A stretch of 64,000 nucleotides of DNA from Bacteroidota bacterium (GTDB taxonomy: Bacteria; Bacteroidota; Bacteroidia; Bacteroidales; UBA12481). The position numbers and the translations under genes were made by a program. Under the pieces are notes generated by a model. That model was not told the origin of the DNA. It did not search any database and saw only the letters and a list, made by a program, of their open reading frames with translations. Of the stretch, positions 46,038-52,792 are shown in pieces; positions within the stretch are counted from its first letter, which is position 1, and each line of letters begins with the position of its first letter. The stretch is taken from positions 62,001 to 126,000 of the forward strand of contig JABHCC010000095.1 of NCBI GenBank assembly GCA_018669475.1. Reading direction: 5' to 3'.

Positions 46038-46340
46038 TTACAGAAAGCCTAACTCCAGTTTTGCTTCCTCTGTCATCAGTTCACGTGTCCAGGGAGGGCT
46101 GAAAGTAAGATTCACATCTACTTCCTTAACTCCTTCAACTGAGGCAACTTTTTGATTTACCTCCGCAAGAATATCATCAGCCATCGGACAACCGGGGGCT
46201 GTGAGGGTCATAGTAATTTTCGCTTTCCCGTCTTCATCGACAAATATTTCATATATCAATCCGAGATCATAAATATTCACCGGTATCTCCGGGTCGAAGA
46301 TCGTTTTAATAACTTTGAGTATTTGAACTTCAATTTGCAT
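46038..46340 (-). CDS. DUF59/MIP18-family Fe-S assembly protein (SufT-like)
   Basis: 100 aa: DPEIPVNIYDLGLIYEI at about 17-33 and the cysteine motif TAPGCPMAD are the family signatures. In suf operons this protein assists maturation of Fe-S enzymes. It follows sufE by 2 bp. Its stop codon is in the same frame as the downstream queG coding sequence, with no stop between. Confidence 0.93.
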   Translation of the reverse strand: MQIEVQILKVIKTIFDPEIPVNIYDLGLIYEIFVDEDGKAKITMTLTAPGCPMADDILAEVNQKVASVEGVKEVDVNLTFSPPWTRELMTEEAKLELGFL

Positions 46341-46342
46341 AA

Positions 46343-46768
46343 CTAGTTTGAACTTTTTGTTTTGTAAGCCAAGGCATAATAACGCATTTGCTTCAGCATA
46401 GATACCAATCCGTTAGATCGCGTCGGAGAAAGATGCTCCTTCAGTCCGATAGTATCAATAAACTCTAAATCAGCATTCAATATTTCATCCGGTGTACTCT
46501 CGTTCAGGACGCGAATGAGAAGGGCGGCAATTCCTTTAGTTATTATTGCATCTGAATCAGCTGAATAATTAATCTTGCCACTCTGAAATTCAGCCTGGAG
46601 CCATACTCTTGACTGACACCCCTGAATCAGATACTGATCGGTCTTACAAGTGGTATCAAGTGCTGGAATATCACGTCCCATCTCGATCAGATAATTATAC
46701 TTATCCATCCATTCATCAAGATCAGAGAATTCCTCAATAACTTCCAGCTCCCTTTCGTGTATTGTCAT
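46343..46768 (-). CDS. sufE: Sulfur acceptor SufE
   Basis: Takes persulfide sulfur from SufS and passes it to SufBCD. 141 aa from the ATG at 46768, which matches the family length; an upstream ATG at 46885 would overlap sufS heavily. The acceptor is Cys51 in LIQGCQSRVWL. Lies 10 bp after sufS. Confidence 0.95.
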   Translation of the reverse strand: MTIHERELEVIEEFSDLDEWMDKYNYLIEMGRDIPALDTTCKTDQYLIQGCQSRVWLQAEFQSGKINYSADSDAIITKGIAALLIRVLNESTPDEILNADLEFIDTIGLKEHLSPTRSNGLVSMLKQMRYYALAYKTKSSN

Positions 46769-46778
46769 ATCAAACTTT

Positions 46779-48002
46779 TTAACCAAACATCTCCTGTACC
46801 GTATTGATTCCTTCAACGAAACGGTCAACTTCTTCTTTGGTATTATAGAAACACATAGATGCTCTGATTGTTCCGTCAATCCCAAAATGCTCCATTAATG
46901 GCATGGCGCAGTGGGTGCCGGTACGAATTGCAATTCCCAGTTTATCCAGGACCATCCCGGCATCATATGGATGGATATTTTCAAGTAGGAAAGAGAAAAT
47001 GGGGTGTTTCATCTTACTATCACCAAAAATCCGGATTCCGGGGATAGATCTTAAAGCATTCCCTGCATAATCGTTCAGAGCGATTTCATATGCATCAATA
47101 TGATCAAGACCAATATGTTCTATATACTCGAGGGCAGCTCCTAATGCGATTGCTCCGACATAATTTGTAGTCCCGGCTTCAAATTTAAAAGGCAGGACAT
47201 TAAAGCTTGTTCCCGAAAAGCTAACTCTGTCAATCATATCACCACCACCCTGATATGGTGGCATAGCCTCCAGCCATTTCTCCTTGCCATACAAAACTCC
47301 AATACCAGTTGGCCCATATACTTTATGTCCGGAGAAAACATAGAAATCACAATCCATCTCCTGAACATTGATTTGACCATGCTGAATAGACTGAGCTCCA
47401 TCAATCAGAACGGGGATATTTTTTTCATGTGCCTGCCGGATGATTTCATTAACCGGATTAATCACCCCCATTGCATTTGACACCTGAGTGACTGCAATCA
47501 GACGAGTCCTTTCAGTCAGAAGAATGGGGAGCTGATCCATTTGTAACTCACCAATATCATTCACTGGCAGAACTTTTAATCTGGCTTTTTTTCTGTCACA
47601 CAGGAGTTGCCATGGCACGATATTGGAATGGTGCTCCATGGCACTTACTAAAACCTCATCTCCCTCTTCGATAAATGCCTCCCCGAAAGATGTGGCTACC
47701 AGGTTTATTGAAGCTGTCGCCCCGGCGGTAAAAATTATTTCGCGTGAATTATTTGCATGAACAAACCTTCGGACAGTTTCCCTGGCCCCTTCATAAGCCT
47801 CTGTCATCTTGCCGCTTAAATAATTTACCGACCTGTGAATAGAGCTGTTTTGATTCCTGTATAAGTTATCAATCGTATCAATAACCTGCACGGGCTTCTG
47901 GGTTGTTGCTGCGTTATCAAAATACACAAGTCTTGTTTTGTTGACCTGGGCTTTCAGGAGGGGAAAATCCTCCCGGATGGTATCAATAGGGAAATCATTC
48001 AT
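46779..48002 (-). CDS. sufS: Cysteine desulfurase SufS
   Basis: PLP enzyme that releases sulfur from cysteine for cluster building. 407 aa from the ATG at 48002 (MNDFPIDTIREDFPLL). PLP lysine in FSGHKVYGPTGIGVLYG, catalytic Cys364 in GTHCAMPLM, and YFDNAATTQKP near the N-terminus. Ten bp after sufD. Confidence 0.97.
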   Translation of the reverse strand: MNDFPIDTIREDFPLLKAQVNKTRLVYFDNAATTQKPVQVIDTIDNLYRNQNSSIHRSVNYLSGKMTEAYEGARETVRRFVHANNSREIIFTAGATASINLVATSFGEAFIEEGDEVLVSAMEHHSNIVPWQLLCDRKKARLKVLPVNDIGELQMDQLPILLTERTRLIAVTQVSNAMGVINPVNEIIRQAHEKNIPVLIDGAQSIQHGQINVQEMDCDFYVFSGHKVYGPTGIGVLYGKEKWLEAMPPYQGGGDMIDRVSFSGTSFNVLPFKFEAGTTNYVGAIALGAALEYIEHIGLDHIDAYEIALNDYAGNALRSIPGIRIFGDSKMKHPIFSFLLENIHPYDAGMVLDKLGIAIRTGTHCAMPLMEHFGIDGTIRASMCFYNTKEEVDRFVEGINTVQEMFG

Positions 48003-48012
48003 AATAGTTTGT

Positions 48013-49380
48013 TTACTGACAGTGTAAAGAACAACTATTGCAACGGCTGAGCTCACCCCTCAGTCTTTTCTCAACCAGATCATCAAGTCGATCACGCAAT
48101 GGTGATATTGTTACTTTCTTAAGAATCTCATGTCCGAAAGCATACATTAACAATAATCTGGACTCTCTGCATGATATTCCTCGTGATTGCATGTAAAATA
48201 AAGCATTTTCATCTAATTGCCCAACAGTTGCTCCATGACTGCATTTTACGTCATCAGCATAAATTTCAAGAATTGGTTTGGTTTTCATACGAGCCTCATC
48301 AGTAAGACAGATATTATTATTAGTTTGATAGGCCGTTGTTCTCTGCGCTTCTTGTCGAACTAAAATTTTACCTGCGAAAACCCCGGTTGCTTTATCATCC
48401 AAAATACCTTTATAATTCTGATTACTTGTGCAATCAGCTACAGCATGATCAATAAAAGTATAGCTGTCGACATGCTGATTCTGATCGGCAAGAAACAGGC
48501 CGAGAGTATTATTATCAGCTCCTTTGCCGTTCAATTTAGCATATACATTATTCCTGATTAGTCCTCCATGAAGCGTTACAGTATTGAAATTCACATGGCT
48601 GTCTCTTTCCTGATGAAAATGCGTAGTTGCCACTTGTTGTGAATCGTTGTGCTCATTTTGCACCTTATAAAACTCAACATGGGCATTGGCTCCAACGAAA
48701 ACCTCAGTCACTGCATTGGTCAGGAACTTATTTCCTGAAAGAGTATGGTCACACACAACTACAACAGCCTGGGCTCCTTCTTCGACGATTACCAGATTTC
48801 GATGCTGAACAAAAAGATCTTCCGGACTAAGAAGTAAATTAACAATTTGAACTGCCTGATTAGACCCTGCATTCTTTGGCACATAAATGAATGTTCCATC
48901 CTGAGCGAAAGCTGTGTTTAAGGCTAGTAAGCCATCAGTTCTAAAATCCACATACTTACCATAATGCTCTTTTACCAGGTCGGGATATTTCTGTGCAGCT
49001 ACAGCCATGCTGCCAATAATCATTCCATTATCCAGGGTTTGCAGCTGATTCTGGTTTTCATAGTACCAGCCATTAACCAACAGAACCACTTCAGTATCCA
49101 GATCAGGTATATCACAATGGAATAAATCTTCAACTGAAAATAAGATCTTTTTTGGTTCAATATATTTCCTGAAAGGCATCAGGAAAGATTTTCCAATATT
49201 GGTATACTTATAATTCTCTTGTTTCTGGTCAGGTATACCTAATTCTCTGAAGACCTCCATCGCCTCAGGCCTGTATGCATTAATAAGCGAACTCGAAGAG
49301 GCCATTAATCTGTCACGACTGCTAAAATACCAATCTGACAGTTCTGTGCTAATTTTTTTATTTTCTGTAGCTACATCCAT
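48013..49380 (-). CDS. sufD: Fe-S assembly scaffold component SufD
   Basis: 455 aa beta-helix partner of SufB and SufC. Diagnostic C-terminal block DDVKCSHGATVGQLDENALFY followed by SRGISCRESR. The N-terminal 150 residues are more variable, as usual. Sits 11 bp after sufC. Confidence 0.96.
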   Translation of the reverse strand: MDVATENKKISTELSDWYFSSRDRLMASSSSLINAYRPEAMEVFRELGIPDQKQENYKYTNIGKSFLMPFRKYIEPKKILFSVEDLFHCDIPDLDTEVVLLVNGWYYENQNQLQTLDNGMIIGSMAVAAQKYPDLVKEHYGKYVDFRTDGLLALNTAFAQDGTFIYVPKNAGSNQAVQIVNLLLSPEDLFVQHRNLVIVEEGAQAVVVVCDHTLSGNKFLTNAVTEVFVGANAHVEFYKVQNEHNDSQQVATTHFHQERDSHVNFNTVTLHGGLIRNNVYAKLNGKGADNNTLGLFLADQNQHVDSYTFIDHAVADCTSNQNYKGILDDKATGVFAGKILVRQEAQRTTAYQTNNNICLTDEARMKTKPILEIYADDVKCSHGATVGQLDENALFYMQSRGISCRESRLLLMYAFGHEILKKVTISPLRDRLDDLVEKRLRGELSRCNSCSLHCQ

Positions 49381-49391
49381 CCCCTATTCTC

Positions 49392-50138
49392 TTAAAATTG
49401 TTCTTTAATCCAGTCATACCCCTTCTCTTCAAGCTCAAGGGCGAGTTCTTTTGTTCCTGAGGTGACGATGCGTCCGTCATATAAAACATGTACAAAATCA
49501 GGAACAATATAATCGAGCAGTCTCTGGTAATGAGTAATTACCACGGTTGCATTATGCTCATTTTTGAGCATATTAACTCCTTGAGCAACTGTTTTAAGTG
49601 CATCTATATCCAAACCTGAATCTGTTTCGTCAAGGATTGACAGTTCAGGCTCAAGCATAGCCATCTGAAAAATTTCATTTCGCTTTTTCTCACCACCTGA
49701 AAAGCCCTCATTCACAGATCGGTTAGTAAGTCCTGAGTCAATTTCTACCAGGGCTTTCTTTTCACGCATAATTTTCAGAAAGTCTGATGATTTTATTGGC
49801 TCCTGATCAAAATATTTTCGCTTTTCATTCAAGGCCGTACGCATGAAATTCACCATAGAAACTCCGGGGATTTCAACGGGATACTGAAACCCCAGAAATA
49901 TCCCTTCATGAGCTCTGTTTTCAGGAGCCATGTCCAGAAGATCTTTACCATTATACTCAACTGAGCCTTCAGTAACTTTGAAAATCTCTCTTCCGGCCAG
50001 TACAGCTGCAAGAGTGCTTTTACCTGATCCGTTCGGCCCCATTATAGCATGAACTTCCCCGGCATTTACCTCCAGATTGATTCCTTTCAGTATCTCTTTA
50101 CCCTCTATCAGAGCATGCAAATTTCTTATCTTTAACAT
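49392..50138 (-). CDS. sufC: Fe-S assembly ATPase SufC
   Basis: ABC-type ATPase of the SufBCD scaffold. 248 aa: Walker A GPNGSGKST at about 35-43, signature FSGGEKKRNE, Walker B LSILDETDSGLD and switch His in VVITHYQR. Between sufB (34 bp) and sufD (11 bp). Confidence 0.98.
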   Translation of the reverse strand: MLKIRNLHALIEGKEILKGINLEVNAGEVHAIMGPNGSGKSTLAAVLAGREIFKVTEGSVEYNGKDLLDMAPENRAHEGIFLGFQYPVEIPGVSMVNFMRTALNEKRKYFDQEPIKSSDFLKIMREKKALVEIDSGLTNRSVNEGFSGGEKKRNEIFQMAMLEPELSILDETDSGLDIDALKTVAQGVNMLKNEHNATVVITHYQRLLDYIVPDFVHVLYDGRIVTSGTKELALELEEKGYDWIKEQF

Positions 50139-50172: not shown

Positions 50173-51621
50173 CTATCCTACGCTACCCTCCAGGGTAATT
50201 TGCAACAGTTTCTGTGCTTCAACTGCAAATTCCATGGGTAATTTATTTAATACTTCTTTTGTATAACCATTTACTATTAATCCGATAGCATTTTCAGTAT
50301 CGATTCCACGCTGATTGCAATAGAATATCTGATCTTCACCAATTTTGGATGTTGTTGCTTCATGTTCCACAATTGCGGTACTATTATCTACTTCCAGATA
50401 AGGAAATGTATGTGCACCGCATTGATCTCCCAACAATAATGAGTCACATTGTGAAAAATTTCTGGCTGATTCAGCATTTTTCGAAACCTTGACTAATCCT
50501 CTGTAGCTATTCTGACTTTTTCCGGCTGAAATACCTTTCGATACAATAATTGATTTAGTGTTTTTACCAATGTGAATCATTTTGGTTCCGGTATCAGCCT
50601 GCTGATAATTATTCGTAACAGCCACGCTAAAGAATTCTCCTACAGAACTATTACCTCTAAGAATGCAGCTAGGATATTTCCAGGTTATAGCTGACCCGGT
50701 TTCAACCTGAGTCCAGGAAATCTTACTATGGTCTCCCATGCACAATCCGCGCTTAGTAACAAAATTGAATATACCCCCTTTGCCCTCTTTGTCTCCGGGA
50801 TACCAGTTCTGCACAGTGGAATATTTGACTTCTGCATTTTTCATTGCAACAATCTCAACGATAGCTGCATGCAGCTGGTTTTCATCACGCTGCGGAGCTG
50901 TGCATCCCTCCAGGTAGCTTACATATGAATCATCATCCGCAATTAGAAGTGTTCGTTCAAACTGCCCTGTATTAGCTGCATTAATCCTGAAATAGGTTGA
51001 CAACTCCATCGGGCACCGTACTCCCTTGGGAATATAGCAAAATGAGCCATCACTAAACACGGCAGAATTCAAAGCCGCAAAGTAATTATCGCGATAAGGT
51101 ACAACTGACCCCATGTATTTCTTCACAAGATCAGGATGCTCCCTTACTGCCTGACTGAAACTGCAGAATACGATACCCAGATCTGCCAGGTTATCCTGGA
51201 AGGTAGTTTTTACCGATACACTATCCATTACTGCGTCAACGGCAACTCCTGAGAGTCTTTTCTGCTCTTCAAGCGGAATGCCCAGTTTATCAAAAGTTTC
51301 GAGTAATTGTGGATCCACTTCATCCAGGCTTTCAAGATCAGCCTTTTGTTTGGGAGCTGCATAATAGATTACATCCTGGAAATCTATTTTCGGAATTTTC
51401 AAATGAGCCCATTCAGGCATTTTAAGGCCCAGCCAATAACGATATGCTTTCAGCCTGAAGTCGAGCATCCAACCAGGCTCTTCTTTTTTCTTTGAAATCA
51501 AGCGAACAACATCCTCACTGAGCCCTTTGGGAATTACATCATTCTCAATATCGGTAACAAAACCATATTTATACTCACTTTGTGTTACTTCACTTAAAAT
51601 CTTATCCTGATCCTTTGCCAT
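50173..51621 (-). CDS. sufB: Fe-S assembly scaffold SufB
   Basis: 482 aa; main scaffold on which Fe-S clusters are built. Conserved blocks: [39 protein letters not shown] and [20 protein letters not shown]. First gene of the suf operon (sufBCDSE-DUF59-queG). A promoter element and a 23-bp inverted repeat lie 24-51 bp upstream. Confidence 0.98.
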
Positions 51622-51644: not shown

Positions 51645-51652
51645 CAAATCTA
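51645..51652 (-). promoter_or_regulatory. Putative -7 element of the suf operon
   Basis: Minus-strand TAGATTTG (51652-51645) matches TAnnTTTG, 24 bp before the sufB ATG. The nearest TTTG upstream is 24 bp away, slightly too far, so -33 recognition may be weak and regulated. Confidence 0.55.
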
Positions 51653-51672
51653 TTTAGACTTTTTCTAAATAG
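51650..51672. promoter_or_regulatory. Probable operator of the suf operon
   Basis: Perfect inverted repeat CTATTTAGA-N5-TCTAAATAG. It overlaps the -7 element and fills the spacer of the sufB promoter, where a bound repressor would block RNA polymerase. The size and symmetry suit a dimeric winged-helix regulator such as an iron- or cluster-sensing protein; the identity is unknown. Confidence 0.7.
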
Positions 51673-51718
51673 AAAACAAAAGTACAAAAACCGACAATAT
51701 TAATCCCAATAGAAATAC

Positions 51719-51726
51719 TAATTTTG
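51719..51726 (+). promoter_or_regulatory. Putative -7 element of thiL
   Basis: TAATTTTG matches TAnnTTTG, 22 bp before the thiL start; no clear -33 TTG. Confidence 0.45.
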
Positions 51727-51748: not shown

Positions 51749-52792
51749 ATGACAAAAAAAATATCTGAAAAGACAATTAAGGATCTGGGTGAATTTGGAT
51801 TGATAAAACACCTGACTCAGGATGTTGTTATCAGACAGAACAGTACACGTAAAGGAATTGGTGATGATGCGGCGGTGATTGACCACGGAAACAATGAAAC
51901 GATTGTCACAACAGACCTCCTGCTTGAAGGGGTTCATTTCGACTTAACTTATGTTCCTTTAAAACACTTAGGTTATAAAGCTGTTATTGTTAACCTTTCG
52001 GATGTTTTTGCAATGAATGCTGTGCCCTTGCAGATTACTGTTAGTATAGGAGTCTCCTCAAAGATAAGTGTTGCCGCTCTTGATGAGTTGTACTCCGGGA
52101 TAAAACTGGCCTGCAACATGTACGATATTGATTTGGTAGGAGGCGACACCTCGGCCAGCTTCAATGGCTTAACAATAAGTATCACAGCTCTCGGGATGGC
52201 TACTCCGGGTTCAGTTGTTTACCGAAACGGAGCAAAGAAAAATGATTTAGTTTGCGCCAGTGGTCACCTTGGTGGCGCGTATATGGGTTTGTTACTATTG
52301 CAAAGAGAGAAGAAATTATTTGAGCAAGATCCATCCCAGCAACCTCAGTTAGATGATTACCAACATCTTCTTGAGAGGCAGCTCAAGCCCGAAGCACGTC
52401 GTGATATTATTACTCAATTACGTGAGATTGAAGTTAAACCCACTTCAATGATTGATATTTCAGATGGTTTATCCTCTGATCTTCTGCACATCTGTGATGC
52501 ATCAAAACTGGGGTGCAAGCTTTTTGCCAATAAGATACCAGTCCATCCGGCCACCGACAAGCTTTCTACTGAGATGGGAATGAGCCCCTTAGTAGCTGCT
52601 TTGAATGGTGGAGAAGATTATGAATTACTTTTTACAATTGCAATGGAGGACTTTGAGAAGGTCCAAAATATGCAGCAAGTAACGGTTATCGGACACATGA
52701 CTGACAATAGTGAAGGTACTCATATGATATTAGACGATGATTCAGCTATACCATTGGTAGCTCAAGGATGGCAGGCTCAGGAAGGATTATAG
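51749..52792 (+). CDS. thiL: Thiamine-monophosphate kinase
   Basis: Converts thiamine monophosphate to the diphosphate cofactor with ATP. 347 aa of the AIR-synthase/ThiL fold. Motifs: GIGDDAAVID near residue 36, TTDLLLEGVHFDL, VGGDTSASFNG, DISDGLSSDL and ALNGGEDYELLFT. Divergent from sufB and convergent with lpxA (20 bp between stops). Confidence 0.96.
   Translation: MTKKISEKTIKDLGEFGLIKHLTQDVVIRQNSTRKGIGDDAAVIDHGNNETIVTTDLLLEGVHFDLTYVPLKHLGYKAVIVNLSDVFAMNAVPLQITVSIGVSSKISVAALDELYSGIKLACNMYDIDLVGGDTSASFNGLTISITALGMATPGSVVYRNGAKKNDLVCASGHLGGAYMGLLLLQREKKLFEQDPSQQPQLDDYQHLLERQLKPEARRDIITQLREIEVKPTSMIDISDGLSSDLLHICDASKLGCKLFANKIPVHPATDKLSTEMGMSPLVAALNGGEDYELLFTIAMEDFEKVQNMQQVTVIGHMTDNSEGTHMILDDDSAIPLVAQGWQAQEGL

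Follow-up and report, generated by a model that had tools for sequence, protein, structure and literature searches.

The 23-bp palindrome at the sufB promoter of the 64,000-nt stretch of DNA analyzed here (hereafter, the window) is very probably a Fur box in its Bacteroidota spelling, judging from sequence comparison. This reading draws on a 17-of-19-letter match to the Fur box of Riemerella anatipestifer, as given in the available part of the report on that organism (PMC5609570), on conservation of the site upstream of sufB, on the iron genes that neighbor the same site elsewhere, and on a Fur protein encoded in the genome. The Fur box is an operator type already known, and what is added is a Bacteroidota-type site at suf genes.

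The palindrome is composed of the arms CTATTTAGA and TCTAAATAG around the spacer CTTTT (N5), with both 9-bp arms perfect, and lies between sufB (minus strand) and thiL (plus strand), 28 bp upstream of the sufB ATG (Table 1). Its core comprises 19 bp at 51652-51670 with a central T at 51661, and the box contains the 7-1-7 palindrome TTAGACT-T-TTTCTAA. The first-pass annotation had described a perfect palindrome with 9-bp arms and an N5 spacer at the suf promoter, and this is indeed present; the start given there, 51645, takes in the octamer TAGATTTG. A whole-genome string search recovered the exact palindrome as a single copy in the 5.56-Mb genome, and with up to three mismatches it matched once in the window, compared with 0.03 matches expected from dinucleotide shuffles. 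At the same tolerance, the whole genome held five matching places versus nine for a reversed control pattern, and thus is not rich in the palindrome; nor was the loose box core enriched there (19 matches versus 59 for the control). In the window (60% AT), 20 inverted repeats have perfect 9-bp arms 3-10 bases apart, two of them with a spacer of 5, so symmetry alone is weak evidence. Of an earlier argument from symmetry and position, an iron-dependent operator for a dimeric repressor of Fe-S assembly is supported, through conservation. The palindrome is real and conserved, and is raised above chance by its conservation upstream of sufB.

Table 1. Features of the suf-thiL region, in window coordinates.
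Feature	Position	Strand	Remark
Fur box (predicted operator) CTATTTAGACTTTTTCTAAATAG	51650..51672		conserved at sufB and iron genes; 17/19 letters of the published box, as available
Likely sufB -7 element TACTTTTG	51677..51684	-	4 bp upstream of box; conserved offset
Alternative family-specific -7-like octamer TAGATTTG	51645..51652	-	3-bp overlap with left arm
Candidate -33 element TTGG	51706..51709	-	21 bp upstream of TACTTTTG; weak
thiL -7-like octamer TAATTTTG	51719-51726	+	octamer match
sufB, first gene of presumed operon	50173..51621	-	NCBIfam sufB equivalog above cut-off
sufC	49392..50138	-	TIGR01978 above cut-off
sufD	48013..49380	-	TIGR01981 above cut-off
sufS	46779..48056	-	TIGR01979 above cut-off
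sufE (ORF)	46343..46885	-	best model SufE, under its cut-off
SUF-associated DUF59/SufT-like protein	46038..46340	-	TIGR02945, 134.8 bits vs cut-off 143.4
thiL, divergent	51749..52792	+	TIGR01379 above cut-off

Conservation was assessed in 88 sufB upstream stretches obtained from 80 named sufB loci, with titles including Bacteroidales, Cytophagales, and Chitinophagaceae, and from the family genomes; two stretches (L063, L088) were left out as too short, the window's own gene (L005) is part of the set, and L010 and L032 are a single record counted twice. At least 14 of the 16 consensus letters were present in 31/88 sufB upstreams, compared with 0/1760 Markov shuffles. A box matrix trained on 30 of the sufB sites (consensus TTATTTAGAATnATTCTAAATAA) reached at least 14 bits in 42/88 upstreams, 30 of these sites being the training set. 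Box density was 2.09 per kb in sufB upstreams versus 0.006 per kb elsewhere in the same loci (~350-fold), the remainder of these loci holding four sites in 666 kb. The other 46 of the 88 upstreams lacked a box at 14 bits, among them those of loci titled Bacteroides, Paludibacter, and Dysgonomonas. A search for the motif in the genome and in related sufB promoters had been suggested at the outset, and it is this search that returned the one exact genome copy and the 42 box-bearing upstreams. Loss of the motif upstream of sufB in relatives, named beforehand as part of the evidence that would count against an operator, was not what was found within the family: sufB was present in 10/12 family genomes, and the box lay upstream in all 10, with the N5 spacer in nine and N4 in one. 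The exception is genome G006, where the suf box (L007, G006:C243) occurs ~34 bp before sufB and its spacer is one base shorter (4, not 5).

The position of the box relative to promoter-like octamers is also conserved. In 30 of the 42 box-bearing sufB loci, a TAnnTTTG begins at offset -13 to -10 relative to the box, such that the box starts 2-5 bp past the octamer, whereas ~0.5 loci in all would be expected by chance from the frequency of TAnnTTTG elsewhere; outside the window's family, the octamer holds this offset in 20/32 box-bearing loci. In the window, the corresponding octamer is TACTTTTG. The first-pass annotation had instead named TAGATTTG as the -7 element of sufB; this octamer exists and shares 3 bp with the left arm, but its place (offset +20) is filled in only 8/42 sufB loci, every one of the window's family and with L010 and L032 representing one record counted twice, compared with the 30/42 that carry the TACTTTTG-type octamer. 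From these counts, TACTTTTG is likelier than TAGATTTG to be the -7 element of sufB, and TAGATTTG may be a second, family-specific promoter. Farther upstream, TTGG is a weak candidate for a -33 element under the Bacteroidota promoter consensus. With TACTTTTG as the -7 element, the box would lie over the predicted sufB transcription start, where a bound protein could block the promoter. On the other side, the -7-like octamer of thiL is located beyond the box, placing the box upstream of the predicted thiL promoter, and thiL is therefore probably not directly repressed. At the feoAB fusion gene, the box is upstream of the TAnnTTTG in 8/10 family genomes, the two starts being 32-34 bp apart. Either placement would be compatible with iron-loaded Fur repressing by simple steric hindrance, and the resulting promoter map (box just past TAnnTTTG at sufB, upstream of TAnnTTTG at feoAB) is usable for annotating other genomes.

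The same geometry bears on whether the palindrome is an RNA hairpin or a chance inverted repeat. A transcription start at TACTTTTG would put the box in the 5′ leader, and 20 comparable repeats occur in the window; however, in the 8/10 family genomes in which the feoAB box precedes TAnnTTTG it would be untranscribed, and letters are conserved in the sufB boxes, not pairing alone, making a hairpin or chance origin extremely improbable. Rfam models gave no match above gathering scores between 45000 and 58000 of the window, and an RNA hairpin was set aside on this result and the feoAB geometry.

To identify other genes preceded by the box, the family genomes were scanned with a box model derived from those at sufB, scoring 150 candidates per genome. 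Among these candidates, a box of 15.6-27.5 bits was located before the feoAB fusion gene in 10/12 family genomes, including the window's own, in which the two top-scoring boxes of the 150 were those at sufB and feoAB. The FeoAB proteins share 51-100% identity with the own-genome protein, which contains Pfam FeoA and FeoB_N domains. The same box therefore occurs at an iron acquisition gene both in the genome and in its family. In two family genomes, a box was additionally recovered 22 bp before the gene for a Fe/Mn superoxide dismutase (L301, L304; domains checked in L301), and in three, a box of 25.5-28.6 bits preceded a hemerythrin/DUF438/PAS protein (L310, L291, L297; domains checked in L310). 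A lower-scoring box of the own genome (19.1 bits; L295, G000:C214:244896-244918) precedes a gene whose product fuses a NapC/NirT-type cytochrome with a formylglycine-enzyme-like protein.

Across the phylum, the exact core was recovered from 82/392 genomes, compared with five for a reversed control. Neighboring genes were tallied for 70 sites among the matches listed, with some near-duplicates passed over; many of the 70 come from related genomes, and the hemA and sufS sites chiefly from one family. Among the matches listed, 43/70 sites had iron-related neighbors and 27 had other or unassigned ones: HemA (12), SufS (8), Fur (7), Fe-type solute-binding protein (4), SufB (3, with SufA first in L143), imelysin (2), FbpB-like permease (2), cytochrome c (2), and Rrf2, Nfu, and FeoAB (1 each). 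Fe-type and FbpB-like are designations used here, Pfam assigning these proteins to general ABC families. By gene content, this set looks like an iron regulon. The first-pass annotation had guessed at a lineage-specific iron or redox sensor; an iron-responsive dimeric repressor is retained from that guess, but not its restriction to one lineage, as the box marks feoAB, hemA, fur, and iron-transport-like genes, and the new sensor is replaced by a known one. The 12 loci in which the box precedes hemA (glutamyl-tRNA reductase; L126, L130, L132, L135, L138, L140, L142, L153, L155, L157, L158, L162) have a divergent gene on the far side of the box, encoding an AraC-family regulator in L126, the one checked. 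A Fur-type box at hemA suggests iron control of heme synthesis.

Comparison with described operators separates the box from some and aligns it with others. SufR sites are of the CAAC-N6-GTTG type, and the sufB box does not read like these. It was also said at first to be unlike known Fur sites, which proved incorrect: the 19-bp R. anatipestifer Fur box ATTTAGAATTATTCTAAAT, predicted from Fur-regulated promoters and supported by gel shifts on four of them in the available part of PMC5609570, is identical to the window 19-mer ATTTAGACTTTTTCTAAAT at 17/19 letters. The window box likewise conforms to the 7-1-7 pattern TTAGAAT-N-ATTCTAA with ATT/AAT flanks. At rhuB of R. anatipestifer, Fur binds the near-identical box ATTTAGAATTATCCTAAAT and requires Fe2+ (PMC10986502, as available), and at rhuH a Fur-box mutant is derepressed (PMC11967795, as available); the accessible portion of another Riemerella paper gives an E. 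coli-type consensus instead (PMC7976709). The R. anatipestifer sites resemble the window box in their letters and in lying near a start codon, but they occur at outer-membrane receptors and other genes, and the iron response of sufB there is independent of fur (available parts of PMC5609570 and PMC10986502). Specifically, the 11 Fur boxes tabulated for that organism, several of them poor fits to the consensus, do not include sufB in the part of the source available, and table 3 reports a low-iron rise of sufB of 1.85 without fur versus 1.87 with it, apparently in log2 units (PMC5609570). Since that response is equal without fur, suf control by Fur is not established in the phylum literature examined, so far as the available text extends. 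In the accessible part of PMC10117729, iron-bound Fur inhibits Suf expression in E. coli and low iron raises it, as proposed here; E. coli differs in employing IscR and OxyR as well, in having the Isc system, and in the spelling of the Fur box, GATAATGATAATCATTATC (cited in the available part of PMC5609570). PgFur of Porphyromonas gingivalis is a Fur-family protein from the same phylum, but belongs to a divergent subfamily and bound neither iron nor the E. coli Fur box (PMC6613475, as available). Motif strings sought in the open-access literature matched PMC5609570 only, and no earlier account of Fur control of suf in Bacteroidota was found among open-access titles and abstract openings; the available main text of a B. 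thetaiotaomicron network paper (PMC12596196) does not contain Fur, suf, iron, or Fe-S as whole words.

Profile searches of the own genome identified three Fur-family proteins and one Rrf2 protein. Fur is represented by P0001 (G000:C68:40385-40828), with 99.4 bits to PF01475 versus a cut-off of 23.1; it fell short of every NCBIfam equivalog cut-off (80 bits where 220 are required, at best), and its closest solved relative is B. subtilis PerR. In the alignment, P0001 has Glu in place of the B. subtilis PerR Asp in ..VDF.., a residue that bears on the distinction between Fur and PerR, and contains both Cys pairs. Orthologs of P0001 were present in 10/12 family genomes at 68-100% identity (the G003 copy with an in-frame stop) and were the sole PF01475 protein found in nine, of which seven have the suf box and seven the feoAB box. 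P0001 is the likeliest reader of the box on the grounds of this distribution. The profile search found no P0001 ortholog in two genomes with boxes at both sufB and feoAB, G002 (81% complete) and G006 (rated 100%), each in ~400 contigs. The sole Fur-family protein found in G006 is PerR-like (L201), and this case may reflect a change of reader at the operator or else a gap in the assembly.

The Fur-family proteins other than P0001 raise the alternative that a PerR-like paralog (L203 or L204) reads the box, in which case suf would answer peroxide and not iron. PerR senses peroxide, and the Bacillus PerR box, TTATAATNATTATAA, is a 7-1-7 palindrome with TTA-AAT halves, an architecture that the box core shares. 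Both paralogs have PerR as their best NCBIfam model, below its cut-off, and carry Asp at the position of the P0001 Glu; hemA and fur, which are PerR targets in Bacillus, and superoxide dismutase are box neighbors, and G006 combines boxes with a PerR-like protein alone despite its rated completeness. PerR-type reading is nevertheless improbable: the sites here include feoAB and iron-transport-like genes, which sets them apart from Bacillus PerR (catalase and ahpC were outside the search), most genomes in which the P0001 ortholog is the only Fur-family protein carry the boxes (7/9 at each gene), and the R. anatipestifer gel shifts used Fur (available parts of PMC5609570 and PMC10986502).

Repressors of two further families were weighed against Fur. 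The ends TTTAG/CTAAA had first suggested DtxR, as sites of the DtxR family can be AT-rich palindromes with TTAG/CTAA ends, which the box fits. A search for the C-terminal domain Fe_dep_repr_C (PF02742) only gave zero matches in the own genome (G000; 95.4% complete), whereas 11/14 control genomes were matched; with no such domain and with fur genes as neighbors, DtxR was dropped, and binding by a DtxR/MntR-family repressor is left with almost vanishing probability. An Rrf2/IscR-type Fe-S sensor could be supplied by the single Rrf2 protein of the genome (L205), which has three spaced cysteines, and in one phylum locus an Rrf2 gene is itself preceded by the box. Against this, L205 scored above the Rrf2 superfamily cut-off alone and none of the specific ones listed, the box occurs at iron-uptake genes in many genomes, and it nearly equals a Fur-bound sequence (PMC5609570, as available); control by an Rrf2 protein is very improbable. 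In the locus concerned (L146), the box at 1501-1521 precedes the gene for the Rrf2 (IscR-like) regulator at 1554-1949; if this box acts, Fe-S regulation there would come under Fur.

Under the Fur box reading, the directly observed elements (the site with its symmetry and conservation, its position next to a conserved -7-like octamer, the iron genes that it accompanies, and a Fur protein in the genome) would be connected as follows. When iron is sufficient, a metal-loaded dimer of P0001 would bind the 7-1-7 palindrome, metal-dependent binding having been reported for R. anatipestifer promoters only. Bound at the box, which begins 4 bp past TACTTTTG, Fur would cover the putative sufB transcription start and keep RNA polymerase off. 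As iron falls, Fur would lose its metal and leave the box, and sufBCDSE(T) would be derepressed together with feoAB. This provides a concrete predicted Fur box for a large, mostly uncultured group of Bacteroidota, and suggests that the Fur regulon of this group takes in Fe-S assembly besides iron import. An unlikely, though conceivable, elaboration is that one Fur-family protein reading a Fur/PerR-intermediate box governs iron uptake, hemA, and suf/Nfu as an iron and redox regulator in single-paralog genomes, with a second box reader where fur is dispensable (Riemerella) or seemingly absent (G006).

The own fur gene is preceded by a weaker box of 12.9 bits, 2 bp before the ATG, and the fur boxes of the own genus are both weak (12.9 and 14.9 bits). 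In the window's class, 4/83 fur upstreams had a box at 8 bits or more versus 1.1% in shuffles, a count that leaves out the own-genome site because the stretch was 1 bp short (it was scored separately). The 83 upstreams comprise 70 loci (among 111 genomes with a match) and 13/14 from the family search, with the own fur counted two times (as L192 and L206) and the divergent paralogs L201, L203, and L204 among them. Autoregulation of fur as a general rule was not upheld in the class.

The suf genes downstream of the box are presumed to form one operon. Family models identified no regulator among the run of sufB, sufC, sufD, sufS, sufE, and the SUF-associated gene. The longest sufE ORF (46343-46885 of the window) has a TTG start within sufS, and the true start is probably further downstream.
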